A stretch of 64,000 bases of DNA from Agarophyton chilense (taxonomy: Eukaryota; Rhodophyta; Florideophyceae; Gracilariales; Gracilariaceae): positions 558,001 to 622,000 of the forward strand of contig JARGXX010000075.1 in NCBI GenBank assembly GCA_030374765.1, in the 5' to 3' direction. Position 1 is the first letter of the stretch; every line of letters begins with the position of its first letter. Made by a program: the position numbers and the translations under genes. Below, in pieces: positions 28,246 to 53,639 of this stretch. The notes under the pieces were generated by a model, which saw only the letters and a program-made list of their open reading frames with translations, ran no database searches and had not been told where the DNA came from.

Positions 28246-28251
28246 AATTAG

Positions 28252-28267
28252 TCTCCCGACTTAGAAG
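28252..28267 (+). promoter_or_regulatory. Candidate primer-binding block of element 1
   Basis: TCTCCCGACTTAGAAG lies 6 bases beyond the 5' LTR. A similar block lies at the same place in element 2 (13 or so of 16 positions alike). It does not begin TGG, so it is not complementary to a tRNA CCA end. Priming from an internal tRNA fragment is possible; this is inference. Confidence 0.4.
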
Positions 28268-28359
28268 TCAAGACCGCTTGCGTCGTCTCTGAGGTTGTTT
28301 TCCGTTGAACGGGTTTTCTCCGGTCTCACCGGTTTGCTTTCTATTCTTCCGTCGAGACG

Positions 28360-30480: not shown

Positions 30481-30515
30481 AGGGAGTCTCCCCTTCGGGA
30501 GAGGCGTCCTCAGAG

Positions 30516-33500
30516 TTGAGGCTGACGACGCCGGAGGCGCCGATGCCTCGCTCCCCGGTGAAAATCCTGACAAGGAAGGACACCGCAGACGCGGACTCTA
30601 AACACCTCGGTGTTTTGCGTCGACTGTGGATACGGATTAGAAATAACCGGATCCCGGATAGAGTCTTGGTAATGGCCAAGCGTAATTACAAGGTTGACGC
30701 TGACCTTGGTCTGCACACGCAGTTTATGGTGAGATATCTCACTGTCCTGGATACAGGTGCTGGGCCGAACTTTATTGTGGAATCGGATTTACCCCCGCCA
30801 TTGCGGTCACTCATCCGTTCTGAAACGGTACCCGACGTCTCAGACGCCCATAACAACCCGTTGAAAACGGTTGGTGTGATCGACCTGGTCGTCAGGCTAG
30901 GGCGGATGGTGGTTAAACTAACTTTTATTGTGTGCCGCTCGCTGGCCGCGCCAGTTATACTGGGATGTGAGTACTGCGACAGGTTTGTCGACGCCATCCG
31001 CCCACGCCTTAAGCAGGTGGAACTTGAGGACGGATCGACCGTCCCCATTGTTCGTCAACCGCTGAAGCGGGCATCGAGGAAACACGTTCCTCTACCTGCT
31101 GCGCAGGAACCCACACCGGCGAACCGGGATTCTACGAAGCTACGCGTTGCCTCGTCAGTCACCATACCCCCGGAGAGCCAGGTTATGGTTTCAGTCAATT
31201 CCCGTCAACACGGTCTTCGGGTTGTTCAGCCCTTGCCCTCGTTGTACGAGAAATTTCAGTTAACCGTTGCGAACGGAATCGTGCAAGTCACGCCTAATTC
31301 CTCTTTCAGGGTGTTGGTTGCCAATCTGGGAAAGGCTCCCCAGACGCTGGCAAAGAACCAAGTCATTGGGTCTGTGACGCCGCACCCGCTCGCGATGCTC
31401 CCTACAAAGGTGACGGCTGCCGAAGTACTCGGAATAACTCCCTCTACCGAGGATGGTCTCCCGGTATCCGGTGCAGAAACCTCCAGGGAGTCACAGCAGT
31501 TGGCGCTCGATAAAACCGTCAAGACGGATGCATTTCAGACCTCGTCGGTTCCCACACCTGACACCAGGGCACAGCCTACGAGCTACGATAAGATAGACCC
31601 GATCAAGGCCCTCGAGGACCTGGACCTGAGTCATGTACCGGTCTCACACCGGGACCGCTTACGCGGAATGCTACGCGAGTTTACCACGATGTGGGACGGC
31701 TCACTGGGTGAGATCAATACAACCGAACATCGGATAGACTTGCTACCGGACGCACGTCCGGTTGCACAACCCCCTTACAGGGCGGGACAGAAAGCTCGGG
31801 AGGAGGAAGAATTTCAGGTGGACAAGATGCTCCGTGCTGGAGCCATCGAGCCCGCCCAATCTCCTTGGGCTTCACCGGTGGTGCTGGCCCTCAAGGCTGA
31901 CGGCAGGTGGCGGTTTTGCGTTGACTACCGCCGCCTCAATGCCGTCACCGTGAGGGACACCTACCCGATTCCGCGCATGGACGAGTGTATAGACTCACTC
32001 GGGGTCGCTACCGTGTTTACGGCTCTGGATGCTAACTGGGGCTACTGGAAAGTCCCAGTCCGGGAAGAGGACCGAGACAAAACCTCGTTTGTTTGCCACT
32101 CGGGTTCCTACCGCTTCAAGCGGATTCCGTTCGGTTTAACCAATGCACCGGCCACCTTTCAAAGGGCAATAGACATACTGATGTCGCGTTTGAAGTGGCG
32201 CACGTGCCTTGTCTACTTGGACGACATCATTGTCTTTTTCAGAAACCTGGACGACTACCTGACCCACGTGCGGGACGTGATGACCGTACTGCGAGACGCA
32301 GGAATAACCCTCAAGTTGAAGAAGAGCAAGTTCTTCACCGACACGGTAAAGTATCTCGGGCACGTCATCCGTCCAGGACGGTTAATGATCGAACAAGTTC
32401 ATATCAAGTCCCTCTGTGAGGCGAAGGAGCCCCGTACTGAAACGGAGCTCCGATCCTTTTTAGGTCTGGTCAACGTCTATCGACGGTTTATACCGAGTTT
32501 CTCGGATATCGCCGCTCCGCTAAACGCGCTACTGCGGAAGGGCCAGCCACCGAAGCTTGCGCCATTTACCACCGATCAGTCGGAATCTTTTCGCTCCTTG
32601 ATTAAGGCAGTTACGACAGCTCCCATCCTATCCTTGCCCAAACCTGGGCTTCCCTACTCCATCGACACCGACGCCAGCGACCACCAGGTGGGCTGCGCAC
32701 TGTTCCAAACCACCCCCGAGGGAGACCCCAAACCAATTGTCTATTGGTCCCGCACGCTGAACGTCCACGAGCGCAACTACTCGGTCTCCGAGAAGGATTG
32801 CCTCGCCGTGGTCTGGGGGCTATCCACTCTGCGCCCATACCTCAGGGGCGTTCATTTCACCGTGTACACGGACCATGCCTCGTTGAGGTGGCTGCTGAAC
32901 ATCGCAGATCCTTCTGGCCGCTTAATGCGGTGGCGCCTCCGCTTAGCGAAATTCGCCTTCGAGTTCGTCTACAAAAAGGGTGTCCAGAACACCCAAGCAG
33001 ACGCCCTCTCTCGATTACCTACGACAGGTGAAGCACTTGCCGACCCGGAGGTCGACGAGATACCGTGCTTTACCTTGGAAGGGGAAACACCGACGGAGTC
33101 GGATTGGCCCGAAACCGGGGAAGACACCTTGGAAATGGATGAGCTACTCGCAGCGCGGGAGAATGAAACACCCGTACCCGGGACCTTTGTACCCATCTCC
33201 ACCGAGGAGATGATCCGAGAACAGTTCGGCGACCCGTTCTGCACGCGCACACGGGCCCGCCTAAACGGTGGAGAGGACCTCCCATTCGAAGTAAACTACA
33301 TCGGTTACCTCGTCCGGACGGTGGACCACCGATCCCAGATCGTGGTCCCCCACACCCTGCAAACCAGGGTGCTCCACCTCTCACACTACCCGACCCTCGG
33401 GGGACACTTCGGTGGGAGAAAACTTTATCTAACCCTGCGAAGGGACTTTTATTGGCCCACTATGGCGGTTGATTGCTACGCTACGGTACAGTTCTGCACC

Positions 33501-35740
33501 CAATGCGCAAAGAACCGGGTGAAACTACGGAAGCACTCCAAACGGATGAAGCTTTTCCCCGCAAGGGCGCCCCTCGAGTTTGTCGCAATCGACATTCTCG
33601 GGCCTCTGCTCAAGACGCGCAAGTGAAACAAGTTCCTCTTGGTTATCACTGACCGCTTTTCGAAGCTGGTGCGCACCGTACCTTTACGGAAGATCACCGC
33701 TTTCACGGTTGCGAACGCCTTCGTTACGCACTGGGCGTTCGCTTATGGCCCTCCGATAGAGGTTCTATCCGGTAACGGTAAGCAGTTCGCCTCTAAGTTC
33801 TTTCAGGACGTCTGCCCCATCCTCGACGTCAAGAACCTGTTTACTACCACGTACCACCCGCAAACAAACGGGCAGGTGGAACGCTTCAACCGCACCCTAC
33901 TCGCGTCGCTACGCTCCTACGTATCCGATCACCCAATGACGTGGGACATTTATTCTGATGCTATCACCTACGCCTACAACACACAGGTTCACCGGACAAC
34001 CGGTCTGACTCCCTTCGAGCCTGTGATCTCCAGGACACCCCCGCCCGTGGCGGTCGAACCCCAACACAGGGTCAACTCTTTCCCATCCGTGGGTCAATAC
34101 CGCCTCAAGTGGAAGAACTGGCTTACCAAGCTCGTACCGGTCGCCCGGAAGTCCATGAAACGTGCCCAGGCCGCCTACAAGCGGGATTTTGATAACCGCT
34201 TACGCGGACCACTACCGGCACCGCCCAAGCCGGGAACCTACGTGTTCGTTCGCCGGGAGTACTACAACCCCCGGACCGACAAGCGTCACAAGCTCTCGCC
34301 TGTCGCTGAAGGTCCGATCCGGGTCGTGTCCTCCCTCCCCGGCACCGTTGTGGTGGACAAGAACGGCGACCACGAACGTCTTTCACAAGAACGCATCGTA
34401 GCCGCCCCACCGCCGCAGGCAGAAAACGCATCAGCCCCCGTCGAAACGGCCTCGGATACCACGGGTGCAACGGTGGCACAACGCCCCGCCGTGGTACCGC
34501 ACCCCTCACGGGGTCTCTCCGATATACCGTCTTTATCGAACCACCGGGAATGCCGGAAACACCTGGCCCTTGCGGCCAGCTACCCTTACGGGCGCCGCGC
34601 AGCGGTATTTAAACCTGCCATGCGGTTACCCCACCATCACCCGTCGCTCCGTCTAAGGAGGGGGAGGGGACCCACTCAATCGCGGAAGCATCGCCGTCGC
34701 AACGGAAGTTGAACCGGACACCCCGGGCAAGGCCCCGGAGCGGGCAACCGGCATCTTCGCCGGACGCCAATCCGCTCCCGCGGGACGCGGCGGTCAACCC
34801 GACCGCCACGCAACCCCGCAAGGGGGACCAAGGCGCTTGAAAACCCGAAGCCGGGAAGCGAGACCCTACGGACGCTCCGCATCGCGTGGAAGCAACTGAG
34901 GGCTCCCTGCACATTCGCGGTCGCACACCGAGCGTTTCGGTCGATACCGGTACTCCGGCGGGCGCTGCGCAAGCAGGTCTAGCGAGCCACTCCGTTGAGA
35001 ACGGTACGAACCCCATGGGGGAAAAGGGGCGCGACGACAAGTCGAAAACCGCCTCCCTTGCCGAACAATTGGAGCCAAGCGTCCGCGACGGTCCGACCAC
35101 CCGTCCTCAAGGTCACGTGACCCGGGCGGGAGATCGGACCAATGGGCACCCGGCATCCCGGTCATTGGCTGACAGCCACCCCGCGGAGGCGGATCGCCGG
35201 GACAGTGAACCACTCACCGCCCACGGCGCACCGCACGGCGGAAAATGCCCACCAATGGGAACGCCGCATGCTGCAAATCAAGCGGAGGGCTCCGGCGAAC
35301 CGTCACTAAGACGGAAGGACCCCCGCAAACTTGCGGTAGGAGCGGACTTCAGGGAAGCCCTTACAGCCCAGCGGAAACACAACCCGGCCGCGCCGGCAAC
35401 TTCCACGAAGCGGTACGGCAGCCCCGGCAACCCGGCAACAACCGCAGAGCGGAATGACAAACTGGGTGACCCGGAACAGGCGACGACGAGCCCAGCACCA
35501 CGCGGCGCTGAGGCTGGGGTCACCACCACCCGGCAAGGCCGCCAAGTTTACGTGTAGAAGTACGTCCTCGACCGAATCGTCGGACATAGCTACGATGGGC
35601 ACGGGGTGCTCCAGTACCAAACCCGCTGGTACGGATACGGGCCGGCGTGGGACACCCCGGAGCCCATCGAGCACCTCCCGCGCTCCGCGGTAATGCGATA
35701 CCACCGCCTTGCGGGGACCGCACTCCCAGCCACGCTGGTA
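30516..35740 (+). other. pol region of element 1 (protease, RT, RNase H, integrase, linker, chromodomain)
   Basis: Protease motif VLDTGAGPNFI near 30,745; RT with WRFCVDYRRLNAVT, FGLTNAPATFQ and the catalytic YLDD near 32,215; RNase H with IDTDASDHQVGCALF and YTDHASLRWLL; integrase zinc finger (HLSHYP...CTQCAKN), then the DDE core with YHPQTNGQVERFNRT. A ~250-residue low-complexity linker leads to a chromodomain at about 35,545-35,720 with VLDRIVGH, WYGYGPAWDTPEP and LPRSAVMRYH. Gag and pol lie in different frames, as is common in the family. Confidence 0.9.
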
Positions 35741-36091
35741 AACGCCCAAGAGGGATAAACCGTGAACACGGAATGGAATGGCTGATGGCGCCACGCGCCA
35801 TCTCCGTCCATGCCCCAACGCGGGGAAGGAAGCAACCGCTCACGCTATCCCAACGTCGTTGGTGGTCGTGCCAGTTACCTGGTCCGCGCGCGAAGCGCCC
35901 ACCGTTAAACACGGAACTTCCAGCTAGGCTGGTTCCCTGCAACGCCGGAACCCCGGTAGAAGGCCGGTACCCCGGAAAGAAAGAAGCGAACTTGGGAAAG
36001 GGCGTCGGAAAGGCGACCCTCTTCTTTTTATTTCTCACTACTGGCAAGGGCGCCCTAGTGGCGCCGCCCTACATTCTACCGGAAGCTCCGG

Positions 36092-37567
36092 TCATTCCTC
36101 CGCACGAGGTGGACCCCCGCCCAGGCGGTTGGCTAAGGCATCCCGCATGGCGGCCACATCACCCGAGATCTCGGAAGGGCGAAGCCCCACCTCCCGAAGG
36201 AAGCGCGCGATGACCTCGCCCCGTTCCGCGCCAGCGGCAGTTGCGGGCGGGCCCGCCACCGATGGAGTCGGATAGGAATCCGTTCGCACGGCATCAGCAG
36301 CCCCGGATGGAGCCGCACCACCGTATTCAACGGACTCCTCACCGGCCTCGCCGGACTCGTCATCCTCCGTCGGAGCGTAACCCGGATCCTCCGGTTCGTT
36401 GTCGACCATCGGATCACCATCCGCATAGCCGCGGTAATAGTCGCTCGAGTCGACATACCCTTGCGGGTGGTCGGCCGGGACTTCACGCGGCGCATGCCTG
36501 TTGGCTTCCGCTTCCTCGCAGCTGATCTCGTGGTACTCCCAGGGGTCGAAGTAGATGAAATCCCCCGCTAGCGCGTTATTCCTCCCGAATCCGGGGCCAG
36601 ACCCGCGACGCGGTTGAATGCGTTGGGAGTTCTCCAGTGGGACCTCATCCCACTGGACCCCCTCCACAAAGTCGAGGAGGCCCAGCATCTCTTCTTCGTT
36701 CGCCTCGCCCCCGAGGGGGATGCGCATGTCCAAACGGTGGATCGCAGCCCGCACACGCGGTGGCACGTACCACAATCGGTATTGGTCGTACGCCTCAGCG
36801 AGGATAAAAGCCGCAGTGCGGACGGCCCATTCCCTTACCACGACGGACCACCACCCCGACTGGGGATCGTTCAAGAACGACGACCCTACATAGGTGAAGA
36901 CTGGGGGCAGCTCAATGAAGCAACCCCAGCACGCCTCCAAGGAGGACCACCAGTATGGGAGACTGAAGTACCGAACACGTCGGTGAGCAGGCGCGATGCG
37001 CTCAATCTCCGTGTTCTGGTACAGTACGAAATACCCGGTCCGGGCCCGCCAACGCCGCTCATCGCGGATGAAGTTCTGAAGGAAGTTCGAGCACGACTGC
37101 CGCGGTTGGTAGCGGAACTCCGCCCGAAGAATCGGTCGTACCCAGCAAAGGGCTTCTTGCCGAGCGATCGGTGTGCCCCTCCAAGCGAGGGTTTCGAATC
37201 CGTTAAGACGGTCACAGTACGACATTTCCCCGCGAGTGCGGTAAAGGTGGACGTCGAATTCGACCTCTGGCGGTATCGGGAACTCGAAAGGCGCCCGATG
37301 GTGCCTGAGATAAGCGATCCGCACAAGCGCGGCCTGAGCCTCCGCAGAGGATTCACCGCGTCGGCGGAGTATGTGGTGTACCGGGATGGCGATACGATTA
37401 CGCCAATCCCAAGACATGGTCACCACGCCGGGCAGGTCGCCCGGGAGCATCTCCGAATTATCGGTGTAGGAGTGGATCAAATCCTCGTCGCGGACAGCCA
37501 ATGGGTGAAACCAAGGCGCATACCACAACATCGCGGAGCCATGCCGAGTTCTCGGATTTGCACCCAC
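36092..37567 (-). other. Antisense accessory gene of element 1
   Basis: A 491-codon open frame on the strand opposite to gag-pol, between the chromodomain region and the 3' LTR. The N-terminal two thirds are rich in Trp, Tyr and Arg and look globular: an APWF motif, ALCWVRPILRAEFR, ELPPVFTYVGSSFL, AAFILAEAYDQYRLWY, LLDFVEGVQWDEVPLEN. The C-terminal third is acidic and disordered, then ends in a short helix-rich tail. No known domain is recognised. The same protein, clearly homologous but divergent, is coded in antisense at the matching place in element 2. Conservation between two element families argues that it is a functional part of these elements rather than a chance ORF. Confidence 0.75.
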
Positions 37568-37914
37568 AAGGGCGTCGTAGGTCGGCCACTGCGGTGGGTC
37601 CGCCTATCCGCGAAAGCGGGCGCCAATACGGTGGTCTTCGTACGCGAGGTTGGTAACATCCCCAGGGTGGGGCGCGGACCGGAAGCCGGTGGAACTCCCA
37701 AGGGCGGGAGTCGCGGATGTGTTATGACGGTCGGGGTTGGACATGGTGCGTGTTGGTGTGCTGTGGTTGGAATCGGATGCGAAGAGCTTGCGTGGGATCC
37801 TTGGTGAAGGTGTGTTGGTTTCCAGAGACCCGGTGTCGGACGCGCTCTTATCATGACGAGCTGCCATGCCGACTTCCTCTTCGAGGTGTTCGCCTTGTCT
37901 TAAGGGGGGAGATA

Positions 37915-38778
37915 TGAAGAGCAAAGTCCTCCAGGGAGGTTTTTGGGGACTTAAGTCTTTTCCGGAGCCTCCGGCGTGCAACCTCGTTATGAGTAGGAGT
38001 AATCCGTTTTCACGGCGATGGCCGGAACGCCGGTGATGCACCGGCGGGACCGGGTGCCATACACGTGGCCGCAGCGCCCGCGCGACACGTGACCGCCAGA
38101 TTGGCCCCTTTGTTAGACGGACATTTAGCTATTTAGGAAAGACTTTATTTATTCTATTCTACGGTGACTACAGTACTTAGGCCGCCGGCCTCGCGGCCGC
38201 CGGTCCAGTAAAGTCACCCCAACAAGGGTGATCTTGGTTTTCCAGATCTTGGCTCTGTGTCGAACCGCCTGCGCGGATATACAACTCCTTACGGAAGGAT
38301 TTCCCGTGGTGCACGGCTTCCCAACCCCCTTGGACGTTCAAGCAGCCTTCGTGTGTTGGGTATCTATTCCCACTTTCGTGGTTCCGCCCGTGTATACGGT
38401 TTGCTACACTCGGCAGTGCCGGCTATTCCCGAGTCCCCTCTTGTGACTCGTGGTCAACCTCGCCCTCTTGCCTCCGTTCCCATTTTCCTTCCCTTTTCCT
38501 ACCCTTCATTGGGCAATTCCCGCTCTTGCGGCTCGCACTGACACCTGTCGTGCCCGCCACTCTCGTGGGTTTTGCCTTCTCAGAAAATACGCAAGCACCG
38601 CTTCGGCGGATATTCTCGGCTTCTTTCAGCCTCCCTGCGCCCGTCGCGACGGTTCGGCTCCGGCTTACACCCGGTATTGCGCGCCAATCCCTGGGAGGGC
38701 TCTACCGCGCCGGTTACCTCGTGAGAGGAAGATCCGGACGTCTTCGTAGGTTTTCCCCCTTGGGGGCATTGTCCTACA
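37915..38778 (+). repeat. 3' LTR of element 1
   Basis: Copy of the 5' LTR, preceded by a purine-rich tract (AAGGGGGGAGATA) that fits the plus-strand primer. Followed by GCTTT, the right target duplication. Confidence 0.95.
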
Positions 38779-38949
38779 GCTTTTACATTTGTATGATGTC
38801 AAGAAGTTGTACAGCAACGCGGGCGCGTATAACCGGTCGGGGCACCATTCATATGGCATCCGATATATCGGGGACCACGTCAACGGTTTTATGAGTAATA
38901 TTAGTTTTTATTATTTTAGACACCTTAGACGGTACGTTAGTTAAGTCTC

Positions 38950-39690
38950 TACAGTAGTACCGTAGTGGACGGATGGACGTGCAAGGCTGGGGTTACACAC
39001 ATGATACGTGTATGGACCAGGATTGGTTTGCACTACTATAGTCTACACGTGTAGTTCACTGTCTAGAATAGGCTTAAGCGATGGCTTCACCGCCATCGCT
39101 ACCACCAAGTCAATAGTAACCGAATGCTTGGCTCTGGATTATCTCGCCTACGCGAGTCTCTATCTCTTAAAGGGAGGAACCGCGACCGGTTTGGCTAATA
39201 TATCCCCTCCGGAAGCCCAGGCGTCACTGTACCATTGTTATTGGTGTGTTTCTTTCTTTTGTTGGTTTTCCTGTGTTTATGACAGAACACCGCCCCTTTA
39301 TAGGGTTGTTTTTACCCGACTTGGTTTGGGTTATCCAGTGTGGATACCCCTTCCATAGGTCGGTGCGCTTTGTCGTGCGTCCTATTTCGCCCTACATTTT
39401 CGCCCTACATTTTCGCCCTACATTTCGCTGTTTGCTACGGAGTATCCTTGTTCTTGGATCCCCCTTTGGTTCTTCCCCTTTTCCTGGGTTCATCACCTTC
39501 GTAGGTATTGCCTGAACCACTGTGGTCTTACACCCACGCATCGGCGGCAGGAAGGCTCGTTCGCTGAGTTTTCCCTCCTCTTCGCGAGAGCGAGACTCGA
39601 ACACCCGAGAGGTATTTCCCCATCTGGGACTGCTCTACAGAAGTATCTTTAGGTGCTCCGGGTTTTGCACATTTAAACGTTTTGTTACAA
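38950..39690 (+). repeat. LTR-like remnant (right of element 1), approximate ends
   Basis: Resembles the block at 26.0-26.8 kb and, more distantly, the LTR of element 1: TCTACAGTA, ACGTGTATGGACCAGG...TGCACTACT, GCTTGGCTCTG followed by CGCCTACGCG, a T/C-rich centre with a short tandem repeat TTCGCCCTACAT (about 39,388-39,425), then GACTCGAACACCCGAGAG and GGGTTTTGCAC. Probably a degraded or solo LTR of a related family. Confidence 0.4.
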
Positions 39691-40618
39691 TTCTTTCTGT
39701 TCTACGGTGAGTGAGCTCGCAATTTCTGGCTTGGAATGAGCGCAGCGCATATGCGGATAGCAGAGGCTTTTTTTATGTTTTTTGTCCGTCTCGTGGCACC
39801 TGGGCCATCATCGATTGCCTTTCGTGGTCCCCCATAGTAAACTCTCATTCTGAAGAGAAATTGCGGGTTCGACTATCATCTTTTCTTCACTTGGTGACAG
39901 AATGGGTGTACGTCTAGGACGTTTGCAAATTCCTCAAAGAGGTAAAACTATGTCTCGTCGGAGATTTGGAAGCTCATTGTGAGCCTTTACCTACGCCCTA
40001 CATATTGCCTGTTTGCAAATTTGGCTCTGCCACATTGAGCCCTTCTCCGATTTGAGCCCGAATGAGGGTTACCCTTCCAGACCAGAGTAATGTTGAACAC
40101 AAGGTAATTTGAAACAGGGACAAGAAGCTTTTTTCAAAGGGATCTGGGAGAATAACATTAGATTTACAAATGGCTAATCCTCATACGAAAAATTCTAACA
40201 AGTAGCCGTGTAGCGTATAACTCTCTGTTTTGAGATCGTACACTTCATCGTCACATATCTTAACACGGTACGATATCACTCCATACCCGCATCTATCAAT
40301 AGCTACAGTTCAAAAAATATATGACACCAAAACTCCCGCACTCTGACACAAACTCAACGCAGGATAGTCTTTCTGTAACTTTTGACCTTTTGTACCAAAC
40401 GAAACTCTCTCCGTACTATGACGCACTCGCCCACTACTCCCATCAATGAAATGGTGACTCATTTTGTGCGCAAACTGTCATGCGCAATAAGAAAGCGACG
40501 TTAATACGAAAAAAATGTTGTTTCACAACGATAACATGCGGTCAAACTCTTACAACAACACCAAATTATACGACATGTTGTATCCTGTACGGGTTTTTAA
40601 ATTGAAACAGTTCATCGT
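39691..40618. other. Intergenic, no genes seen
   Basis: About 930 bp, increasingly AT-rich towards the transposase remnant. Nothing recognisable. The left end of the pogo-type element may lie here, but I could not find matching terminal inverted repeats. Confidence 0.35.
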
Positions 40619-41635
40619 ATGAGCCAACATATGAAGCTCACAAAACAAGAAAAAACCTCTTACTGCAACCGTTTGTACAATATTCACAGAGGTCGTCAAA
40701 CAGTATTGAAGGAGCACGAAGCGCAGTTGATTGTCGACCGATTTGCGTTTGTCGCATTACGCAGTTTTACAGCGACTGTAGAAGTGCTGAAATTGATTGC
40801 CAGAAAGACAATTAAAGAAGGGCGCAAGGGGATTTCGAATGGTTCCCCTTCTGACGACTGGGTACGAGCATGTCGTGCCAGACACCGTGACATATCGCTT
40901 CGTAAAACTGAAAACAAAGACGCTAAGAAGTTGGTCGCAGAGCACCCTTCACATGTTGGGAGCTTTGTTCGGGCTCTGAAGGAGTGTGAAAAGGCAAATC
41001 CAGGAATTCTATCCGATCCGGATCGTATCTGGGATATGAATGAAACCACGGTAGGAGAACAATACGGTAAGCACGGTAAGTCATTTGTGTCATCTTCCAC
41101 GCATTGCAGTGAGTATAATATGTCATTCACGAAGCCAGGAAAGCACATCACTTCCTGCAATATTGCATCAGCTTTTGGCAAAGTGTGGCCACCGTTTCTT
41201 GTTTTCGCAGGTTAGAAAACTATGATGCATTGGTAGGACGCTCTGCCTCAACAAATTTTTTTCAAAAACGCTTCGGGGGCTCCACATTCGTTGGCAATTG
41301 AGGACTGGTTTCCAGGAGGTGCATCGGTTTGGGAAACCGAAAATGAGTCTTTTACGATGGAAATAATCGGATATGTCATGATTCATATCAATACTCACGT
41401 CAAAAGAAAGCCCGAACCAAACCGGAAGGTGCTGCTTTTGCTCAATGGGCACAAATCGCGTAATGGACTGACTTGGTTACAGAAAGCAAAAATGTTTGAC
41501 ATTGAATTTATACAGAGCCCAGCCAATACCTTTCACTTTTTACAAGCTTGCGACAACTCCATCAACCACATTTTCCAGAACTCCATCAGAACAACACAAG
41601 ATTATCTGAATATTTCCTCATTGTGTGTCTTTTGA
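40619..41635 (+). pseudogene. pogo/Tigger-type (DDE_1) transposase remnant
   Basis: One reading frame runs from 40,619 to 41,635 but carries two in-frame stops in the 41,213-41,255 region. The first part has a helix-turn-helix-like N-terminus and then IWDMNETTV, matching the 'i.N.DET' box with the first catalytic Asp moved or lost. It ends HITSCNIASAFGKVWPPFLVFAG, typical of pogo-like transposases. The second part has VLLLLNGHKSRNG (usually 'LLLDGHxSH', the Asp being Asn here), then FIQSPANTFHFLQACDNSI (usually 'lPpHtTH.lQPLD'). The element is dead, with stops and altered catalytic residues. Cut-and-paste DNA transposon of the Tc1/mariner superfamily, pogo branch. Confidence 0.8.
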
Positions 41636-41679
41636 GATATAGAAATATGGCTAAAGCTCTCCATCTCAGGGTATAGGGG

Positions 41680-42160
41680 CTGTTGTACAATCACCTCTGG
41701 GGTATGCTACTGTCTTGTCTCGGGAGCGTAGTGACGCTCAACCGTAGGGAGCGTGTTGACGCTCAACCTTAGAAGGTAGACGTAGTAAACCTCGATGATA
41801 AAAGGGCACCGTGAAAACCCGCAGGGGCAAACGGCGGGGCAACTAGCCTATACCGTGTAGGTGAACGATGGTAGGCATCGACGCGCGGGACAGCCTGTGT
41901 GGTAGTTGAGAAACGATGAACCAAAAGGTATAGTCGTGACCCAAGTGGTGCCAGTCTTTATCAGATAAGGATGGGGGAGGTGCAGTTCCCTATGTGCAGT
42001 GGACTGCACTCTCTAGATCACCCGGGAGGTGCCAGCAAGGCACGGTTTCTGACCTAGTTTCAGAGACCTGGCCAGCACTGGCTACAGTGCCAGGGGGCCA
42101 CTCCACTACTGTACTAAAATAAATATAATTACAATTACAATTAATATCAAATACTTAACC
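41680..42160 (+). other. Structured noncoding block with tandem hairpins and AT-rich tail
   Basis: ORF-poor block with two near-identical hairpins 25 bp apart (GAGCGTAGTGACGCTC at 41,724-41,739 and GAGCGTGTTGACGCTC at 41,749-41,764), each followed by AACC. Further short stems follow (GTGCC-AGCAA-GGCAC near 42,030; CAGCACTGG...CAGTGCCAGG near 42,073). It ends in an AT-rich tail with repeated ATTACA units near 42,126-42,145. A structured body with a simple-repeat tail would suit the 3' end of a LINE or a SINE, but a solo LTR or MITE is also possible. Orientation is a guess. Confidence 0.3.
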
Positions 42161-42231
42161 AGAAGGTACATGTCAACACTACACGTGGCTGAAAACATCT
42201 ATATGGTAGCTCGCCCGGAGCTGCATGGCCG

Positions 42232-42741
42232 ATGATCCCTCGCATCCATCACATACAGGGTCAGTGCAGTATATTGACAATCTCAAAGGTCAAACCTTCT
42301 GCCACTATACGACAGGGGCTTGTCGAAATCAATCGTAGAGAAATCATTTGTAGATGTAGGACTCTGGTCGATGGACTTTCGGTTCTTGGGTTGGGCGTGA
42401 CAGAAATATATTCTGATAGACAACAACACATGAAGACTAGGACGCAAAGGTTAGATGTGCGCAGAACAGTACACCGCGTAGAAGCTGCCTAAGCCATTTT
42501 CGAACAAAAGACACCACCATACCAAGCGTGGAAGTCCCTTTCAATTTACATGACGGAGGCAAACAGAGTCGAAAAAATAATTGTGGAATGCACACCAACC
42601 ACTACACTTATAATGAAGTACACGATAGAAAACCGTTCTGGTTTCGACCAATCTACTGAAGCGCCTGTCGCCTATTTGACGCACAAGGATATAATAGAAA
42701 TGCGAAAGAAAAGGGCAGATGAAACAAACAGTTGGTATTAG
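42232..42741 (+). pseudogene. Short coding remnant, unknown family
   Basis: About 170 codons in one frame, interrupted by one stop at 42,490-42,492. It includes ATIRQGLVEINRREIICRC and TEANRVEKIIVECTPTTTL. I do not recognise the family. The frame continuity across the stop is the only support, and it may be part of an unidentified transposon. Confidence 0.25.
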
Positions 42742-43091
42742 AGCAAAACTGGTTGCAAATGAGCAGCTTATGAACTTCTGTGTTCTCCGAATGCTAGTTT
42801 AGTGCGCTAGGTAGCTATGCAGGAGCGCAGAGTCCTTTAAAACTTACTGAAATTGCAGTTCGCGCCAGTTCACACCAGTTGCACTTTAAAATTTTTAGTT
42901 TTTGGAAATGTCGGTTCCATTCCCCGTAGAACCCACAGTGCTAATCGCAGTTCGATGATAGTTTAATGTGTCCTTCTTTTTCTCTCTAGTTTCACGTTCA
43001 AGAACGTCACCAGAATCACCAGTCAGCAACCAATTTTTTGTCAACACACATTTACTTATTCAACTGCGTTCCTCCATATCGGAACCCATAA
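42742..43091. other. Spacer left of LTR element 2
   Basis: About 350 bp without recognised features. Before insertion of element 2 it was continuous with the Plavaka-like remnant now at 53.6 kb, and may hold that transposon's 3' flank. Confidence 0.35.
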
Positions 43092-43096
43092 CTCAT
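43092..43096. repeat. Target-site duplication of element 2, left copy
   Basis: CTCAT, repeated at 53,635-53,639 just outside the other LTR. Confidence 0.85.
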
Positions 43097-43714
43097 TGTA
43101 GTATCCGCTCTACGGAGAGAGCACACACCTGCGACAGCGTTCGGGACTGCCGAATGGGTGCTTGTGGCTAAGGGGAAGGTGTGGTAGAGCACAACACTAG
43201 CGAGCTAGAATGGGGGTTGTAAGGCCGCACTCGCCATTGAGGGTGGTTGGTACTATTCAACGGACAACTACTTGTGGGAGCTTGTCCAGATCTCCGGTTA
43301 AGGAATCCTGAACAAGGAACAAGTGAGTTGTGAACCTGTTTGTTGTCTCCTTTACTTTGGAGTCGGCGCTCCTTTCTGTGCCTTAAGTACAGTGCACAGG
43401 GGTGAGCGCCGCACATAATAATATCTAGATATAAAATTGGTTAGCCGATTAACCTCTCTACAGTACGGGATAAAGGTTGCCACGGGGCTACTCACTACAG
43501 TATATGCGCCGTCGCCAATTCGGAATTTCCCTACAAAGGGTCGAGTCGGATGCGCTGTGTCAGACCGAGGTCCCACGTGTAACATACCACCTCACAGACC
43601 ATCTGTGGGGTGCCGCTTCATAACTTCATCCTAGCCGTTGCACTCACTTATGAGCATCATTATATTTGGCCAAAAAAATCTTCCATCGGCATTCCGACAG
43701 TGCATAATACTACA
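43097..43714 (-). repeat. 3' LTR of element 2
   Basis: 618 bp, matching 53,017-53,634 at about 94%. On the minus strand it is preceded by a purine run (AACGGGGGGATG) that fits the plus-strand primer. It contains TACAGTA heptamers near 43,458 and 43,496. Confidence 0.93.
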
Positions 43715-43836
43715 CATCCCCCCGTTAAGCGCGAAGTACCGGCAAAGCAAGACGTCCTTATATACGGGAGCATGCATCGGCGTTCCGAAATTTCCTCGTC
43801 TCCACGAAAGTACCATCTGTTCCAACTTGTTCAGCG

Positions 43837-45516
43837 ATGAACCCCTTTGCGTCGCACAACTCCAACAACGGAGACGTACCTTTCGAGGGTCCTTACGCCA
43901 CCAGTGGCTTTGATTCGCATACTGCGGCGCCTTTGCCCTACCGGTCAATGCGGTCTCCTCGCGTGGGTTTCCAATCCTTGCCCTTGCAGCATTCGGTTTC
44001 AGGTGTGATATCGAATGCGGCTTATGTATCCTCCACTGGGATCATTCGAGCGCCGTCTCATCGGGCTCAATGCATCTATCCACATCCCTCGGACTTGGTG
44101 GGACGAGACCCTCTTGACGATGCTGACCTCTTCGCGCAGGCTCCCTGGTTTGACCTAATCCCTCTTCGCGATCACGTGATGATCAACCGATATGTCTTCA
44201 GTGGTTACGTTCGCGACGGCCTTCTGTTTGCGGTTATCCGCAGCCACGATAGGTTTTCTCACTGTGCTTTGCCAGATAACGCGATTGCCCGGTTTACCAA
44301 CGAAAGTATGGACGAAGCCCGAACTCGATTCACCAAGCTGATATACCAGCATCTGCAACAGTTCATCAGCACGGTCGTTCTCACTGGAGATTGGAATCTG
44401 AATCCCTGGATGGCTCGCACGAATGGCGAAGGACACTCGTACATCGAGACCTTATACGAAGACGACGTCGACGAATGGCGCGGCTTACGCGATGTACGCA
44501 ACGCGGCACTCTGCTTTCGCCGGCCCTTGCTCCGTGCGGACTTCCGCTTTCTCCATAAGAGAGAAATTCCGTACTGGTATTATCGTCGTTGGGAACGACG
44601 TACGAGATTCCGCTTGGGGTACATGGTTCCCTAGCAAATGATCGAGATTGATCGAATTAGGCGGAATGCTCGCGTCAGACGCTATGTCGCGCTGCCAGAA
44701 CACTGGGCGGAGATCGAGAGCCCTCGTAGATGTCCGGTGGAGCTTCCTCCTGCCATTACCTATATCGGTTCGGCGTTGATCAACGACCCGTTCTCTGGAT
44801 ACTGGACTGTCGTGTTCCCCGAGTTCATTTCCAAGATGGCAGCGTATATCCTCTGGGACGCATACAATACCTTTCGGTTTTGGTACATGTCGCCAACAGC
44901 GCGGAGATATGCGAGACAACTCGGTCTTTTCCTTGTGCTAGGGTCCCGTGCCAGTTATGACGAATTCCTACTCTTGGTAGACTTGATCGACAGTATCGAC
45001 TGGCATGGGGTTCCATTGGAGCAAGCGGTTAGAGGCACAAGGGTGCGCCATCGAGGTCATTCGCCGTGACGCACAGATAATGCTGGAGGCTTTGTATGGT
45101 ACAATCCCTGGACCAGCCAGATAATCATGTTTGATCAGGCTCGTGACCTTCGTGCGAATCCTAGGAAGTGCCCTCCAAATCAGCATGCTGGATATATGTA
45201 CGAGTCCACACCGCCCGAGTTTGCAGATCAAGAGTTTGAAGAAGCTCCAGGTGCTGATGCAGAACTTGATTTCGAGGATGAACCCGAACTATCCGGTACG
45301 GCGCCTGTGACGGCTGCTTCGCCACCAACGGTTACGACATCAGGTGTCAACCAGTCGATGGGATACCGTCTTGGGTTCGCCCAACGACCTAGCGATGCGG
45401 AGGATCTCTTTTTGGCACCATTTGGACAATTCCTAGACACGGGTTTCCCCAAAACACAGCTGCAAGGCGATCATGCTGATCTTATCGTCATGCTGAATAA
45501 TCATACCAGCAGGTAA
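43837..45516 (+). other. Antisense accessory gene region of element 2
   Basis: Coding on the strand opposite to gag-pol, between the chromodomain and the 3' LTR, homologous to the antisense gene of element 1. Shared landmarks in order are APWF...RD, EWRG then ALC..RP(L/I)LRA(D/E)FR, RVR.Y, ELPP..TYIGSALINDP, SGYWTVVF, AAYILWDAYNTFRFWY, LLLVDLIDSIDWHGVPLEQ, then an acidic tail (EEAPGADAELDFEDEPEL). The region is broken in this copy. The N-terminal part before APWF is less alike. Confidence 0.7.
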
Positions 45517-45567
45517 GTACGTTGACCATTAGATGTCGTCAACACCCTTCAGGCCATAACATAAACT

Positions 45568-45745
45568 AGTTTCTTCGGTCTCCGTGGCTTTGCGTTCCTC
45601 TAAGTACTTCTTCTTCTTCTCGAGTCTTCTCGTCTTCTTCTGTCACATCCATCTAATAAACCAAATTCTTCTGTTTCCGTGACTTCACGTTTCTCGAAGT
45701 ATTTCTTCTTCTCGAGTCTTCTCGTCTTCTTCTCTCACATCCTTC
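45568..45745. repeat. Tandem duplication of a ~90-bp CTT-rich unit
   Basis: Two adjacent units share TTCTTCTTCTCGAGTCTTCTCGTCTTCTTCT-type sequence, each ending in CTCACATCC or GTCACATCC. They lie between the antisense gene and the chromodomain of element 2, where the two opposed coding regions end. Visible directly. Confidence 0.7.
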
Positions 45746-45763
45746 TTCGGAAGGGAAAGGGGA

Positions 45764-48700
45764 TTAGCAGTCGCTCCGTGAAATCGCGTCTACAAAGCGC
45801 ATCATCGCAGTGTCGATCTCTGCAGGGAGTGGTAGTCGAATGCGGCGATGATAACGCACAACCTGCAACCGCGGGAGATGATTCATAGGCTCCCACGTAT
45901 CCACTTCTGGAGAAAAACCGTACCAACGGATACAATACAGTAGTCTGTGGGTGTCTTCGTCTTCGCCGTGATCGATGATGCGATCCATGGCGTATTCCTG
46001 GGCATTTACCAAAGTTTCGAGGGAGGGCACGAGGTTCTGGTTCACCGGCTTTTACCGTCTGATAAACGAAAGCGTTGATTCCTGACGGGACATGATAACG
46101 TTGTCGTTTCCTTGAACCTCCCGAGCGAGCGTTTGGGAACTTCCTATATCTTCAGGTCAAACCTTGGCAATCTGTTCGAAAAGCTGGGGGCCTTTTTGTG
46201 CCACTGTAGCGTAGTTCTTGGCTTCTGACTGCACAGTTACCGGGTCTTCGGTTATCCGTTTTTCTTCACGTTTCTTGTTTTGTCTGTCCTTCTTAGGTTC
46301 CTGAGCCAAACTGGGCTTCTTCACCGAGGGTTCGGCCTGAGGTGCATCCACAAAAATTTGAAGATTTAGCTTCATCTTCGCCTTCTTCTCTTTGATCGGC
46401 TGGCAAGTGCAATCGCTCAGCGAATGGCGTTCTATATGACGTTTCAATCTGAACAGGTAGTCGCGTGTGTGCATCCGCTTGTGGACTGGATCTAATTGGA
46501 CCAAATTTGAAAATATCTTTCCTGTCTTCAGGTGCTGTGGTCGTACCAGAGTGCTAGCTCTTGCCACGGGGCTTATTCATATTTTTCGGAGAATTGCCGT
46601 GGGATGCCACTGTACTGCCGCGTAGCGGGAGATCACGAGCCATGTCAACGCTATGTGCCACGGGAGGCGGATCGTCTGATTCAACGGGTTGCTCCCGTTC
46701 CTGCTGATAAACAGCGTTTACTTTCTCAGCTTCCCGGGTTTCCAGGTTGTCTGGTGCGGTTTCAACAAGATCGCGCGAAAATCGTTCAACGTCCTCTCCT
46801 GTGTTCAGGACTACGGTGTCATCGGTGAGCTCCATTACCTTGAAAGGTCCGGATACTACCGGTACCAATTTGTGACGTGGTCCATCCTGCTTCTCAAGTC
46901 GTTCCACGCGGACAAACGCGTATCTTCCTACCCTGGGATCTGACAACTGTCTTCGACGTCAGGCGTCCGAATTACTTTTGTAACGCGCTTGCGTTTTCGC
47001 CAATTCTCGAGCCGCCTGCTCTGTTCTTAACCTCAGGTCGTTTCTCCACCTCAGATGGTTCTCCGCCCGTTTCAGTTCGTCTTCCTCGACTTCATCCAAC
47101 CTAATGGGTAGTGACTGTGGGCTACGTGATATCAAGAGATCAAAAGGAGCCGCCTTGGTAGACGTATGCACTTGCGTGTTGTACACATAACAGAGTGTAT
47201 CTGTGTACATGTCCCACTCCTTTGGGTGATCCGGGATGTCATGCCGAAGAGCGGCTACTAACGTACAGTTGTAGCGTTCCACCTGACCATTACACTGTGG
47301 ATGGTAGGTCGTGGTAAACACGTTCCTGATGCCTAATATTCGGCATACGTTCTGAAAGAACTTAGCGAAAAACTGTTTTCCATTATCTGATAGCAACACT
47401 TCTTGCGGTCCGTACACATACACCCAGTGTTTGATGAAAGCCTGGGCTATTACCGAGGCGGTTATCCTCTTCAACGGTACATTCCGTACAAGTTTCGAGA
47501 TTCGATCCATAATTACCAATAGGTAGCGATACCCTTGATTGGAACGAATTATCTCTCCCAGTATGTCGATGCTGACGAATTGTAGAGGCGTCTTCGCCGG
47601 GAATAGAGTCATCTTTTTCGTCTTCTTTTAGAGTTTCACGCGATTCATCACACACGTTTGGCATAGCTTTACCGTAGTACGGCAGTACATTGCCAAGGTT
47701 GGCCAATAGAAGTCCCTTCTTAGTGTAATAAAAAACTTTGTTCATGCTGGGTGTCCAGATAGCTTCACATAATGGGCCAAGTAGAGTAAACGAATCTTAA
47801 AAGCATGCGAAACCACGATCTGATCATGCTTTTCGACATGTGTGAGCAATATACCTCTTGAATCGAGCGAAAAGGGCAACTCCTCCCCCCAGTTAAGACG
47901 AGAGCGTATTGATGTACAGAAGTTATCTGTGAGTTGCTCATTGAGGAGCTCCGTGATCGAGGTACGCTCGAGTGGATCAGGAGATTCAGTTACATGGGTT
48001 GCCATTAGAGGGTCCAATTGGGAGTAGTCCCCTTCATCTTCTTGATCTTCAAGTTGCGTTTCATCGTTCTCCATCTCAATTGAGAAACACGGTAAATCGT
48101 AATCGATTTCTCCTTGGGTTTCCCCTAAAGTTTTCAATCGCGGTAAAACGTCTGCCTGTATGTTAGCCAATCCCTTCTTATATTTAACTTCGAATTCGAA
48201 TTCAGATAGTCGTAAGCGCCAGTGTGTTAATCTCCCGGAGGGGTCCTTTATTGATTATAACCATCGTAGGGACGAATGATTCGTATGGATGGTAAACGTT
48301 TCTCCCTGGAGATAGGGTCGTAAAGTAGTCAGCCCCCAAACTACCGCAAGGCATTCCTTTTCTCATACGGAGTAATTCTTCTGTGCAGAGTTCAGCATTC
48401 GTGACCGGTAACCGATTGGTTTCCTCTGCCGGTCCGGATGGGTCTGAAATAGGGCACACCCTACCTGACACTCACCGGAGTTTGTATCAAAAGCATAGAG
48501 TAGGCTAGGTTTGAGCAAGGCCAAGATTGGTGCTGTGACGAGTTTCGTCTTCAAAGTCTTGAAGGCTTCGTGTTCGGCGGGTCCGAATTCCTCGGGCTTA
48601 ATAGGCTGTCCTTTACGCAACAATGCGTTCAATGGAGCTGCAATGTGTGAGTAGCGCGGTATGAATCGTCTGTAGACAATACATTATCCAAGGAAGGATC

Positions 48701-50528
48701 GCAATTGAGTCTGTGTGGACGGTGGTTGCGATTTGCGGACTGCCGGTGTTTGAGCTTCATGAATTGCAAGCTGACCAGGCCTAATTATGTGGCCCAAATA
48801 CTTCAGAGTATTAGCGAACCATTCGCATTTTTTGAACTTCAAAGTTATACCTGCTGTCTGCGACGCTTTGAGGATTTCCTCCACATGTCTCAAATGAATT
48901 TCCATATCTTGAGGGAAGAGAACGACATCGTCCAAATAGACTAGACATGTTTTCCATTAACACTTCGAGTGTAATATGTCCAGGACGAGCAGGAAAGTCG
49001 CCGGAGCATTGGTGAGTCCAAAGGGCATCAGCTTGAAACGGTATAGTCTAGCGTGTGACACAAATGCTGTCTTATCCTGATCTTTTTCCGCTACAGGAAC
49101 CTGCCAATAGCCGGTGTTGGCGTCAAGCGTGATGAACACGTTCGAATTGGCTAAGCTGTCTATGCACTCGTCCATGCGAGGCAGTGGATCGAGATCCCGT
49201 AACGTAACTGCGTTGAGTTTCTGGTAGTCGACACAGAATCGCAAAGAGCCATCAGGATTTGGGACTAACACCACAGGTGAAGCCCAAGCAGATTTTGCTG
49301 TTTCCATTACTCCTGCTTGGCGCATCTTGGAAACATTTTCCTCCTTGATCTGACGAGTTCGCGGTCCTGCTCTGTAAGGTGGCTGAGAAATGCGACGAGA
49401 TCCCGAAATAACATCAATATGATGTTCTGTAGCGGAGATCTCTCCTAACTTGCCAGTCCACATAGAGGCGTGCGTTTTCAACATTTGTTTGATGCTTTCC
49501 TTATATCCTTCGGGAAATTTCTCGAGAACTAATTCGTTTACCAGCTTGTCTCGGTCATTCCGTTCTTCTGTCGGTTGCGGCTCCTCTCTTGGACCTTCGT
49601 ATGCGCCAGTGGATTCCTCTGACACATCAAAAAACCCTAGCACTTCTGCGGTAGATACATGAGTCGGAACCATTGCTATTGGGTGCGGCAGAGAAGCTGC
49701 AACGATCTGATTCTTCTGTAAATGATAATCATTATAGGAAAAGGTACCAATGAGTATTCAAAAGAGTTTGTCCGGTTCAACTTGGGAAATTCCGTTCGCT
49801 GCGAGAAGTCCTCGATGTTAGTACATCACAGCATGAGGCTGGATTACCACAAGACCGTGTGGTTGTGTTATCACTTGTACCCAGGTTTGGGATTCAGCCG
49901 TTAACACTGTAGGTTTCGACTCACGAATCTTTGGTGATGTAAGACCATGAGCCAACTCGTATTCCATTGAGGGTGGAAGTGGAACAGTAATAGGGACTCT
50001 TCTTAGTGGTCTTCTCACTATTGGAACTGTCGAGCCATCGTCTAACGTGATTAGTCGACTCCGAGGGCGGATTGCTTCGACAAATCTGTCACACTAATCA
50101 CATCCCAGAACAACTGTTGCGGCCAGGAACTTGCAGACAACCAACTTCACTTTCACCAGAAAGTGTCCGATTCGAACGGGCAACTTCACTGCTCCAAGTG
50201 TTCTCACTGCATTCCTATTAGCATCTCGGATATCCGGCAACGGACCGTAACGAGTTCGTTCCTGATTGTTGGGTCCTAGTTCGGGTATCCGAATAAAGTT
50301 CGGTCCGGCTCCTGTGTCAAGAACTGTCAGGCGGCGGGTCAATAAATCCTTGTCCAAGCCGATGTCTGCATAATCTTTATAGTTCCTCTTCTGCATTACC
50401 AAAATAATGTTTTCCCGATTCGACGGACAAGCATAACCTATCCAAGGACGTTTTAGTTCACAGTCAAACTGTACTCGCTTTCCAACGGACGGATTCAATC
50501 CGCTCGAGGGAAGATGATGAGTCCTCAC
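45764..50528 (-). other. pol region of element 2 (protease to chromodomain)
   Basis: On the minus strand: protease motif VLDTGAGPNFI near 50,330; RT with LRFCVDYQKLNAVT, TLDANTGYWQVP and FGLTNAPATF around 49.0-49.3 kb; RNase H remnants near 48.2-48.6 kb; integrase core with FVSIDILGE, LLSDNGKQF and YHPQCNGQVERYN around 47.0-47.6 kb; a lysine-rich linker at about 46.2-46.6 kb; and a chromodomain at about 45,810-45,990 with YAMDRIIDHGED and WYGFSPEVDTWEPMNHLP. Fossil; broken at several points. Confidence 0.85.
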
Positions 50529-50599
50529 CAGGATTTTGGGTTTCCAAGCGCAGGAACAAGAAGGCGAGTACTCCCTGGTCGGCTCTACGCGATGGAATA

Positions 50600-52816
50600 G
50601 GGCCGATTTTCTAGGGGTTCCCTGACTTAGTTTCCCGACTGAGGCGGGTCGTTCGCCCTTGGGACGTTGCTTCCAACTTGCGGATTAGCATGTGGTGCTT
50701 CAGTGTTCTGAATCACTGGAGCTCCAGATTGACGTCCAGAATGGTATCTAAGCCATCCTTTGACCTTCTAGTAGGTACAAGTCGGCACTCGGGTTCTTTT
50801 CTCCTCTGACAGAGTCTCGTAATTCGTCAGGACGCAAACTAAATCCTTTGCAGGAACGATACGTTCTGAAGAGAGATGATGACGGCCATAGCACAGATAG
50901 CATATAAACGCTTCACGGCGAGCTGCCGACCTCGGTTGTGATCGAAACGCTCTGCGCGGGTCCACTCATCCAGGTTTTTCATTCTTGAGTTCTCCCTACG
51001 GGGGCTTCATATATGCACGGGGTACTGGGCATCTGCCCTCCATAGCCACTAGAGCTTCTATCTCTTGGGATTCTGAGTGAGGTAGATCCTCTGTGGGCAC
51101 CGATGAGTGCCAATAATCCATAATGTGAATAGCATCGTGTTGCGATTGGTTATCGTGTCTAGCAAACGACGACCCTCGAGGGTCAACTAGAGATTTTAGG
51201 TGGAATAACTTTTGAGTGGACTTCGCGGCTTGTTTGTGCCTTTCCTTTGCTTTGGATGCGCCAAGCGTTGTAGTGTTTCGCGTAACTCCGCGAGCTCTTA
51301 CCGCGTCACCTTCAGCTTGGGCAAACTGATCCAACTCCAGAAATCTGTTTCTTTCATGCTTTTCTCGAAACCGAGCCATCAGATATTTGATGTTTGGATC
51401 GAGTCCATCGATGAACAAGATAATCTTTTCCTCTGTTGAGTGAAGGTTTCCGCAGCGCGTGGTCATTCTGTTAAGCCTCGAGCTGTACTCTGCATCTCCC
51501 TTATCAGGTTTCTTGGTCACATGACGAAGATCCAGGATAGTTTGTCGGATTGCGTTCTATGTCGCATAGCTGCCCAGTAAGTACTGTAATGACTCCGGCC
51601 AGGATTTCACACCTCCTTCGTCAGTGGTCAGGGATCCGCAAACGGAACGATATTGCTCGAACGCAAAACCCGTCAATAAATGTGGTAATGAAACCCAAGC
51701 TTATGGTTCACTCATTTCTAAGGTGTCCACCTCTGCAACAAAACGAGTAAGGAACTCGATATCGAGAATGGGCGTTTTTCCATCAAAGACCAGATCATTC
51801 AGTCCAATCTTCAACCGTCTAATGTGGTCCTTAACCTTTGCGGTTTCGCGACCCGATCGCTTCTTTTCTCCTTTCCTTAAGCGATTATACCTGTAGTCCA
51901 GGACTTTCCGATACAACGAATTCGTATAAGGAAGTGGCTTGAGAAGATTGTACTTAGGACCTTTCTTCCTTAATAGCCAAGAAGACTTGTTCCTCTTCCT
52001 AGAACGGGAACTACGATGATCATCATCACTGGCATCGTCAGTGGACGTGTTCGACGAGTCAGACTCGTCAGAACTAGAGTCTTCATTGTCCGATCCTGAT
52101 GAATCATCACACGTGTCCAGCTTGGACCTTCGCTTCTTACGACGTCTTGACTTCGATCTCCTCGATCGCTCTTCCCTCAAGGGGACTTCATTTTCGTCTT
52201 TCACGACTTGGGTAGCAGTAGTCTGCGCATTCACTACTGCATCCAAGCGTTTCAGACGCGGGTTAGCTCGAGTGAGGATTTCCTCCACGTCAACGGTCAG
52301 GCTCGGTAAAGCCTCCGGAGCATTACCATGCCTTTCCATTACTTGGTTCAAATCCTCTCGCAGGGATCTCACAACCGCGGGTATCGGGTCCCTTTCTTCT
52401 CGACGAGCGAGTACGTCTTGTTCTCGGCGCAAGGGCTCGACTTCTTCGGTAATGATCGCAATCTGCGATTCCAATCCAATGATTCGCTCACGATAGGCGT
52501 TTGACTCAAATTTGAGACTATGCACCTGAGCGCTTAAATCATTTTCTCCAACAAGGGTTACGACCTGTTGGTCTCTAGGTTCATAATGGGAACCATCTGC
52601 CTTCGTGAGGGGTTTAATAGCCAACTCCACGGACATGGGTACATCCGAGAGATCTCGTCTATCAGTCACCGAACGAGAACGCGTCATCGCCTGACGGTAT
52701 AGTCGCTCTCCGGTTTCTGTAGATGAGGCTGGCCTCGGTCGTGGGCGTGGATCTGAAGGACCCGGGGCCCCAGTACTAGACTGGGTCTTCTTTTTCGGCA
52801 TTCCGAACAATTCCAA
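50600..52816 (-). other. gag region of element 2
   Basis: Starts at 52,816 on the minus strand with a basic, Ser/Arg-rich N-terminus, coiled-coil segments (LKFESNAYRERIIGLESQIAI) and a strongly acidic/serine block with SGSDNEDSSSDESDSS. It then continues to a capsid-like part around 51.0-51.5 kb with AEYSSRLNRMTTRCGN, equivalent to the ETDYSVRLNKAFHRCGN block of element 1. A worn zinc knuckle (CYLCYGRHH) lies near 50.9 kb. Fossil. Confidence 0.75.
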
Positions 52817-52995
52817 TGTTTGGCGACGAAATAATTGACGTCTTCTATTGAATACGACGGCGTAGTTAACTACAAGACTCCGTAATAGCTTGAAGTGGTC
52901 GGAAACCGCGCCCGAGTTCGTATTCCAATCGAATTAAAGATCGGTTTCGATTCCACGTTCCAGGTGCGAAATATTTGGAGTAGCTCACCACAGTG

Positions 52996-53011
52996 TCTCT
53001 AAGGTGGGAGA
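52996..53011 (-). promoter_or_regulatory. Candidate primer-binding block of element 2
   Basis: On the minus strand TCTCCCACCTTAGAGA lies 5 bases beyond the 5' LTR, like the block in element 1. It is not TGG-initial. Confidence 0.4.
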
Positions 53012-53016
53012 ACACT

Positions 53017-53634: not shown

Positions 53635-53639
53635 CTCAT

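Follow-up and report, generated by a model that had tools for sequence, protein, structure and literature searches.

An antisense gene shared by chromodomain Ty3/Gypsy retrotransposons of the red alga Agarophyton chilense

Why do two neighboring Ty3/Gypsy retrotransposons in a red algal genome both carry a long open reading frame on the strand opposite to gag-pol, is this frame a gene, and what could its product do? The locus is a window (the whole stretch analyzed) of 64,000 nucleotides (nt) of Agarophyton chilense, positions 558,001 to 622,000 of contig JARGXX010000075.1 in assembly GCA_030374765.1, and the two insertions with their long terminal repeats (LTRs) are called element 1 (E1) and element 2 (E2) below. 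We propose, with a probability of roughly 0.5, that the frame is an accessory gene, antisense and ancestral in a lineage of chromodomain Ty3/Gypsy elements, that would be transcribed from the 3' LTR and whose nuclear product would act on the element itself, with most of our doubt falling on the function.

In both elements the gene lies opposite to gag-pol between the chromodomain and the 3' LTR, as a preliminary description of this DNA had proposed, and the homology claimed there is borne out: by tblastn the E1 antisense protein matches E2 with 34% identity over 425 amino acids (E 9e-51), and comparison of the two antisense sequences gave 31% over 138 (E 2e-14) and 41% over 131 amino acids (E 4e-31). 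The shared motifs quoted in that description recur in the order given, and E1 and E2-type proteins align from GFRS in the N-terminal part to FLxxxGxxxxxxxGDxA in the C-terminal part, with RxERRxRxRxGY and an ELPP...Y.GS...DP..G.W block among their best-conserved parts. The same description took E1 and E2 for different families with unlike LTRs and base composition. Composition does differ, with a guanine plus cytosine (GC) content of 0.55 to 0.65 across E1 and 0.46 to 0.53 across E2, yet the elements are relatives, being 46% to 48% identical in pol and 36% over 374 amino acids between the E1 gag and the equivalent part of E2. Nothing special is needed to explain why LTRs and composition differ, because the trees of reverse transcriptase (RT) and antisense gene agree and the gene is most likely ancestral.

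The 491-codon frame first reported in E1 is real, but it is not an intact gene, since relatives encode 591 to 597 amino acids and in the window copy codon 88 (37604-37606) is an in-frame stop. Of 30 fetched copies of the E1 family, 21 have a frame of 591 to 597 amino acids (19 of the 28 distinct ones). Its ATG, seen in 25 of the 30, lies 47 nt inside the boundary of the 3' LTR. Among the 28 distinct copies, the stretch of 250 nt before this ATG contains 12 distinct frame-breaking indels, codons 1 to 41 contain none and codons 42 to 100 contain 3, a pattern that supports the ATG as the gene start; these copies, like those used for the selection analysis within E1, were picked for a gapless match to codons 101 to 591, so that a lack of indels there is uninformative while codons 1 to 41 and the flanks are unaffected. 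Across the 491 codons, 62 of the 87 scored E1-type copies (the best 87 of 1825 candidates) are stop-free. The E2 antisense gene starts 121 nt inside the 3' LTR boundary and, though interrupted in the window, is represented in a subfamily, E2b, by four fetched copies with 556 to 560 codons. Between the E1 antisense stop codon and the chromodomain, at about 36000 on the minus strand, lies an AATAAA that resembles a poly(A) signal.

Distribution, selection and descent

The searched genome comprises 79.76 Mb in 135 contigs, and copy numbers are lower bounds because the best candidates were scored (for antisense genes, 87 of 1825 E1-type, 150 of 1389 E2-type and 118 of 1646 in the E3/E4 search; for RT, 150 of 3344 and 150 of 3159). 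The absence of homologues from related elements had been named in the preliminary description as an outcome that would speak against the gene; they are present in the further families E2b, E3 and E4, so that at least five families carry it. E3 accounts for at least 7 and E4 for at least 51 rows among the matches listed, and in the antisense protein E3 shares about 55% and E4 about 49% identity with E1. The gene is opposite to and downstream of RT in 58 of 58 pairable E1 and 61 of 61 pairable E2-type copies. Genes without an RT partner (29 of 87 E1-type and 89 of 150 E2-type) and RTs without a gene partner (92 of 150 and 89 of 150) may be explained by partial match lists. For E3 and E4 the placement is the same in 5 of 5 and 8 of 8 pairable copies, with the antisense rows sorted by hand into E3 and E4 and set against 20 of 150 RT rows (those of about 84% identity); genes downstream of RT alone were counted, and 7 of the 20 RTs had no such partner. 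One E2-type gene lies 5.3 kb upstream of an E1-type RT, and we read it as part of a neighboring element. By these sequence comparisons, place and orientation are kept in the checkable copies of five families, and the gene has the same history as RT.

Some element copies follow one another on the same strand at short, even intervals, at 3138481, 3147678 and 3156875 of contig C68 (9197 nt twice) and at 296189 and 305438 of C77, with similar spacing at 287365 and 293174 of C26 and at 1511174, 1518316 and 1528533 of C22; they resemble what would be seen in tandem arrays with shared LTRs.

Comparison of synonymous (dS) with nonsynonymous (dN) change, as suggested in the preliminary description, reveals protein-level constraint on the antisense frame. 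Between E2b and E2, in 162 pairs formed from 27 E2 rows (L031 to L059 without L056 and L057) and 6 E2b rows, dN is 0.30 and dS 2.03, a ratio of 0.15 (5% to 95%: 0.12 to 0.21), compared with 1.35 and 1.52 for the other forward frames and 1.21, 0.31 and 1.77 for the reverse frames; we read the value of 0.31 as that of the reverse frame that shares its third positions with the coding frame. On other rows of the same two families the ratio is 0.12 for the antisense gene and 0.15 for RT, and antisense ratios are 0.25 for E1 and E3 and 0.21 for E1 and E4, all to be read with the saturation of dS in 9 of 10 family pairs for RT and 7 of 10 for the antisense gene. Within families the ratio is higher (0.82 in E2b, 0.65 in E2), as expected when changes after insertion go unselected. 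We reject a chance long frame in GC-rich DNA in view of the frame-specific constraint, the between-family ratios and the pattern of start codons and indels. On the evidence of these alignments, the antisense frame is protein-coding and was under purifying selection while the elements were active.

The RT and antisense trees (10 and 8 sequences) have the same unrooted topology, joining E1 with E3, then E4, then E2 with E2b. This match implies that the gene was present in the common ancestor of the families, which we regard as most likely, and that it has descended together with the element. We reject gene swapping between families on the same agreement.

Protein features and possible roles

Four proteins, each from a different family, were compared. 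Their N-terminal 110 residues are 33% to 37% proline, serine and threonine, tryptophan and arginine abound in the core, about residues 100 to 430, the tail is acidic with a net charge of -15 to -26, and the single basic cluster sits at the conserved arginine-rich motif. None of the four has a transmembrane segment, with Kyte-Doolittle maxima over 19 residues of 0.93 to 1.54. The lack of such a segment and the one conserved basic cluster are what we count in favor of an internal, probably nuclear protein. PDB sequences searched with profiles of alignments A1 (17 rows) and A2 (the core, 30 rows) gave nothing up to E 10, and there were no relatives among viral contigs searched with one E1 and one E2b antisense protein or among prokaryote genome contigs searched with the E1 protein. 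The protein family is apparently new, as far as such searches tell. The top Pfam row, E3_binding (E 0.029; 4 of 17 members of A1 and 2 of 6 of alignment A3), reached 14.1 bits with a single protein against a cut-off of 23.7 and is attributed to chance.

The mechanism that we favor would begin with an antisense promoter within the 3' LTR or beside it, for which the short distance from the LTR boundary to the ATG in both elements leaves hardly any other place. It would drive an inward-reading mRNA ending close to the chromodomain or short of it. The encoded protein, with its S/T/P-rich N-terminal tail, its core with an invariant arginine-rich motif, its acidic tail and its conserved C-terminal motif, would then regulate expression of the element or the nuclear handling of its DNA, possibly in the manner of the aORF-3R proteins of plants or the antisense regulators of retroviruses, with neither of which it has a known relationship in sequence. 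Among the roles raised in the preliminary description, regulator or nuclear factor is our best guess by analogy.

Several points weigh against this proposal. Nuclear action is argued from analogy, and DNA binding would lack domain support, as Pfam and NCBIfam scans of the antisense proteins (for Pfam, the members of A1 and A3) gave no credible match. AlphaFold models built on A1 and A2 reached a predicted local distance difference test score (pLDDT) of 27.4 and 32.9 and gave no usable fold; values above 50 occur only near the C-terminal motif in the A1 model and near GDFxYFDPW in the A2 model, and the models were otherwise left unused. Neither TATAAA nor TATATA occurs on either strand of the E1 3' LTR. 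Within E1, finally, changes shared between copies have a ratio of 0.82 (n = 119) and singletons one of 0.62 (n = 404), opposite to the order expected if purifying selection acted before insertion.

Among other explanations, the product could be an accessory of the particle or of replication that joins Gag in the particle or aids cytoplasmic reverse transcription or integration, its antisense orientation serving only for timing. Its co-descent with RT and a rate of change similar to that of gag (34% and 36% identity between E1 and E2, respectively) would suit this idea, which we nevertheless consider unlikely because Pfam scans found no Gag, capsid or nucleocapsid signature and a gag gene already occupies its usual place. 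We rate slightly lower a suppressor of host silencing, akin to the host-defense suppressor of the preliminary description, that would protect the element from silencing by small RNAs or chromatin. Here an arms race would fit the faster amino-acid change compared with RT (E1 and E3 are 55% identical in the antisense protein and 86% in RT), and antisense transcription would presumably expose the element to double-stranded-RNA silencing; against it stand ratios well under 1 (0.12 to 0.25) and the lack of any known suppressor domain in the Pfam scans. The gene could also be an old capture, taken from the host genome or from a different mobile element and retained for some non-regulatory role. Such an origin would account for an unrelated protein whose orientation is unusual, but it appears improbable given that no curated family in Pfam or NCBIfam matched; the listed genome matches, taken up by element copies, do not bear on copies outside elements.

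The evidence is harder still on the two remaining explanations. Non-coding antisense RNAs are known in other retrotransposons, according to the accessible part of PMC7264820, and one could suppose that the RNA is functional here and the open frame a by-product. This is very improbable in view of the frame-specific constraint, the start-codon and indel pattern and a protein similarity that persists at saturated or near-saturated synonymous sites, and the between-family ratios contradict it, although an RNA could still add to the role of the protein. An envelope-like protein, proposed in the preliminary description as an envelope substitute, would have the position of env in retroviruses between pol and the 3' LTR, but the antisense orientation and the hydropathy of all four family proteins disfavor it and make it the least probable of all. 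An antisense accessory gene with a nuclear, regulatory product is the explanation that we prefer.

Anatomy of the two elements and their surroundings

The coordinates of both elements are collected in the following table.

Table 1. Features of E1, E2 and their antisense genes (positions within the window)
Feature	Position	Strand	Basis or remark
E1, whole element	27384..38778	+	full-length chromodomain Ty3/Gypsy insertion
E1 5' LTR	27384..28245	+	BLASTN, 845/864 identical to 3' LTR (98%); TG...CA ends
E1 gag	29221..30480	+	open frame; called by position and CCHC-like motif (by eye)
E1 pol	30516..34712	+	two frames, 30516-33626 and 33639-34712; Pfam RVT_1, RNase H and integrase matches
E1 chromodomain	35558..35716	+	PF00385, 25.8 bits (cut-off 25.1)
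E1 antisense gene	36092..37867	-	591 codons, by comparison with intact copies
First-listed 491-codon frame	36092..37567	-	GTG start, codon 101 of full gene
C-terminal conserved motif FLxxxGxxxxxxxGDxA, E1 antisense protein	36146..36202	-	family alignment
Arginine-rich conserved motif ERRxRxRxGY, E1 antisense protein	37025..37063	-	family alignment
E1 3' LTR	37915..38778	+	BLASTN against 5' LTR; putative source of antisense transcript
E2, whole element	43096..53635	-	full-length chromodomain Ty3/Gypsy insertion
E2 3' LTR	43096..43715	-	pairs with 5' LTR, 582/620 identical (94%)
E2 antisense gene	43837..45516	+	single frame with stops at 44632-44634 and 45067-45069
E2 chromodomain	45833..45997	-	PF00385, 34.7 bits
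E2 pol fragments	46959..50528	-	rve (integrase) Pfam match; 48% and 46% identity to E1 pol
E2 5' LTR	53016..53635	-	582/620 identical to 3' LTR

Target duplications flank both insertions (GCTTT for E1, ATGAG for E2), and a G-rich tract adjoins the E1 3' LTR. PF00385 scores above its cut-off in E1, E2 and one E3 copy, with the chromodomain downstream of the integrase, which makes these elements chromoviruses, that is, chromodomain Ty3/Gypsy elements. A Pfam scan of the E1 gag frame gave no match. The window copies are damaged: E1 has an in-frame stop upstream of the chromodomain, and gag-pol of E2 is broken across several frames. Among genome copies close in sequence to the RT of E1, E3 or E4, many RT matches lie within open frames of 1786 to 1926 codons, and gag-pol of this lineage is probably a single frame, unlike in the broken window copies. 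Just inside both 5' LTRs (28246-28275 in E1; 52985-53015 on the minus strand in E2) we find a common TCTCCC..CTTAGA, and the sequence there starts without the usual TGG of a primer site complementary to a tRNA; the priming mechanism of E1 and E2 may be unusual.

Between the elements, a 198-codon frame at 40619-41215 (plus strand) resembles part of a pogo/Tigger-type transposase by eye and has no credible Pfam match. Beside E2, positions 53000-57000 have a strongly positive GC skew of 0.33 to 0.48 over about 4 kb and carry open frames on the minus strand; in the scanned part, no Pfam family matched the minus-strand frames of 53636-54781. GC content is 0.42 to 0.51 across the first 26 kb of the window, and a Brr2-type helicase (2225 codons) and a methionyl-tRNA synthetase are each encoded in one open frame.

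Comparison with known systems

Antisense genes on the 3' LTR side are also known from retroviruses, where HBZ of human T-cell leukemia virus type 1 and its kin are nuclear regulators (accessible parts of PMC7264820 and PMC11963269). For the algal elements, transcription from the 3' LTR is our proposal. HBZ is a basic leucine zipper (bZIP) protein and differs in this from the algal antisense proteins, for which no bZIP domain matched in the Pfam scans. In LTR elements, the function of antisense accessory frames is described as an open question in the accessible parts of both sources (PMC7264820, PMC11963269), and in the open-access literature, subscription papers being outside our scope, we found no red-algal or chromoviral antisense accessory gene.

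The closest likeness is to the plant aORF-3R genes (Grande gene23, RIRE2, Retand and PvRetro13) and to fungal Boty, which are likewise antisense to gag-pol and lie between pol and the 3' LTR, as far as the available part of PMC7264820 describes them. According to the same part, aORF-3R genes are kept in most copies of a family, and gene23 of Grande is antisense and nuclear with its own promoter. Grande, RIRE2, PvRetro13 and Boty are likened here by gene arrangement only, and the host in our case is a red alga. In Retand, 97% of clusters encode TRP28, and the element belongs to a non-chromovirus lineage, in contrast to the chromodomain elements here (accessible part of PMC11963269). Identity with TRP28 was considered and rejected, as none of the proteins in A1 and A3 matched PF04195 at E values up to 1.

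The arrangement is thus already known in kind, while the protein family and the host lineage appear new. The algal elements combine a large number of near-intact copies in a single small genome with five families that have diverged to graded extents, purifying selection and a history shared with RT, and so offer a system for asking which residues matter, whether an antisense promoter has been conserved and whether different lineages arrived at the same solution. Tentatively, and with less confidence than in our main proposal, we go further and envisage an ambisense chromovirus lineage with an ancestral, required nuclear regulator of an undescribed fold, expressed from a 3' LTR antisense promoter, retained while at least five families diverged and invented independently of the antisense genes of plant elements, fungi and deltaretroviruses. 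The algal gene would extend the antisense accessory trait to the chromoviruses of an apparently new host group.

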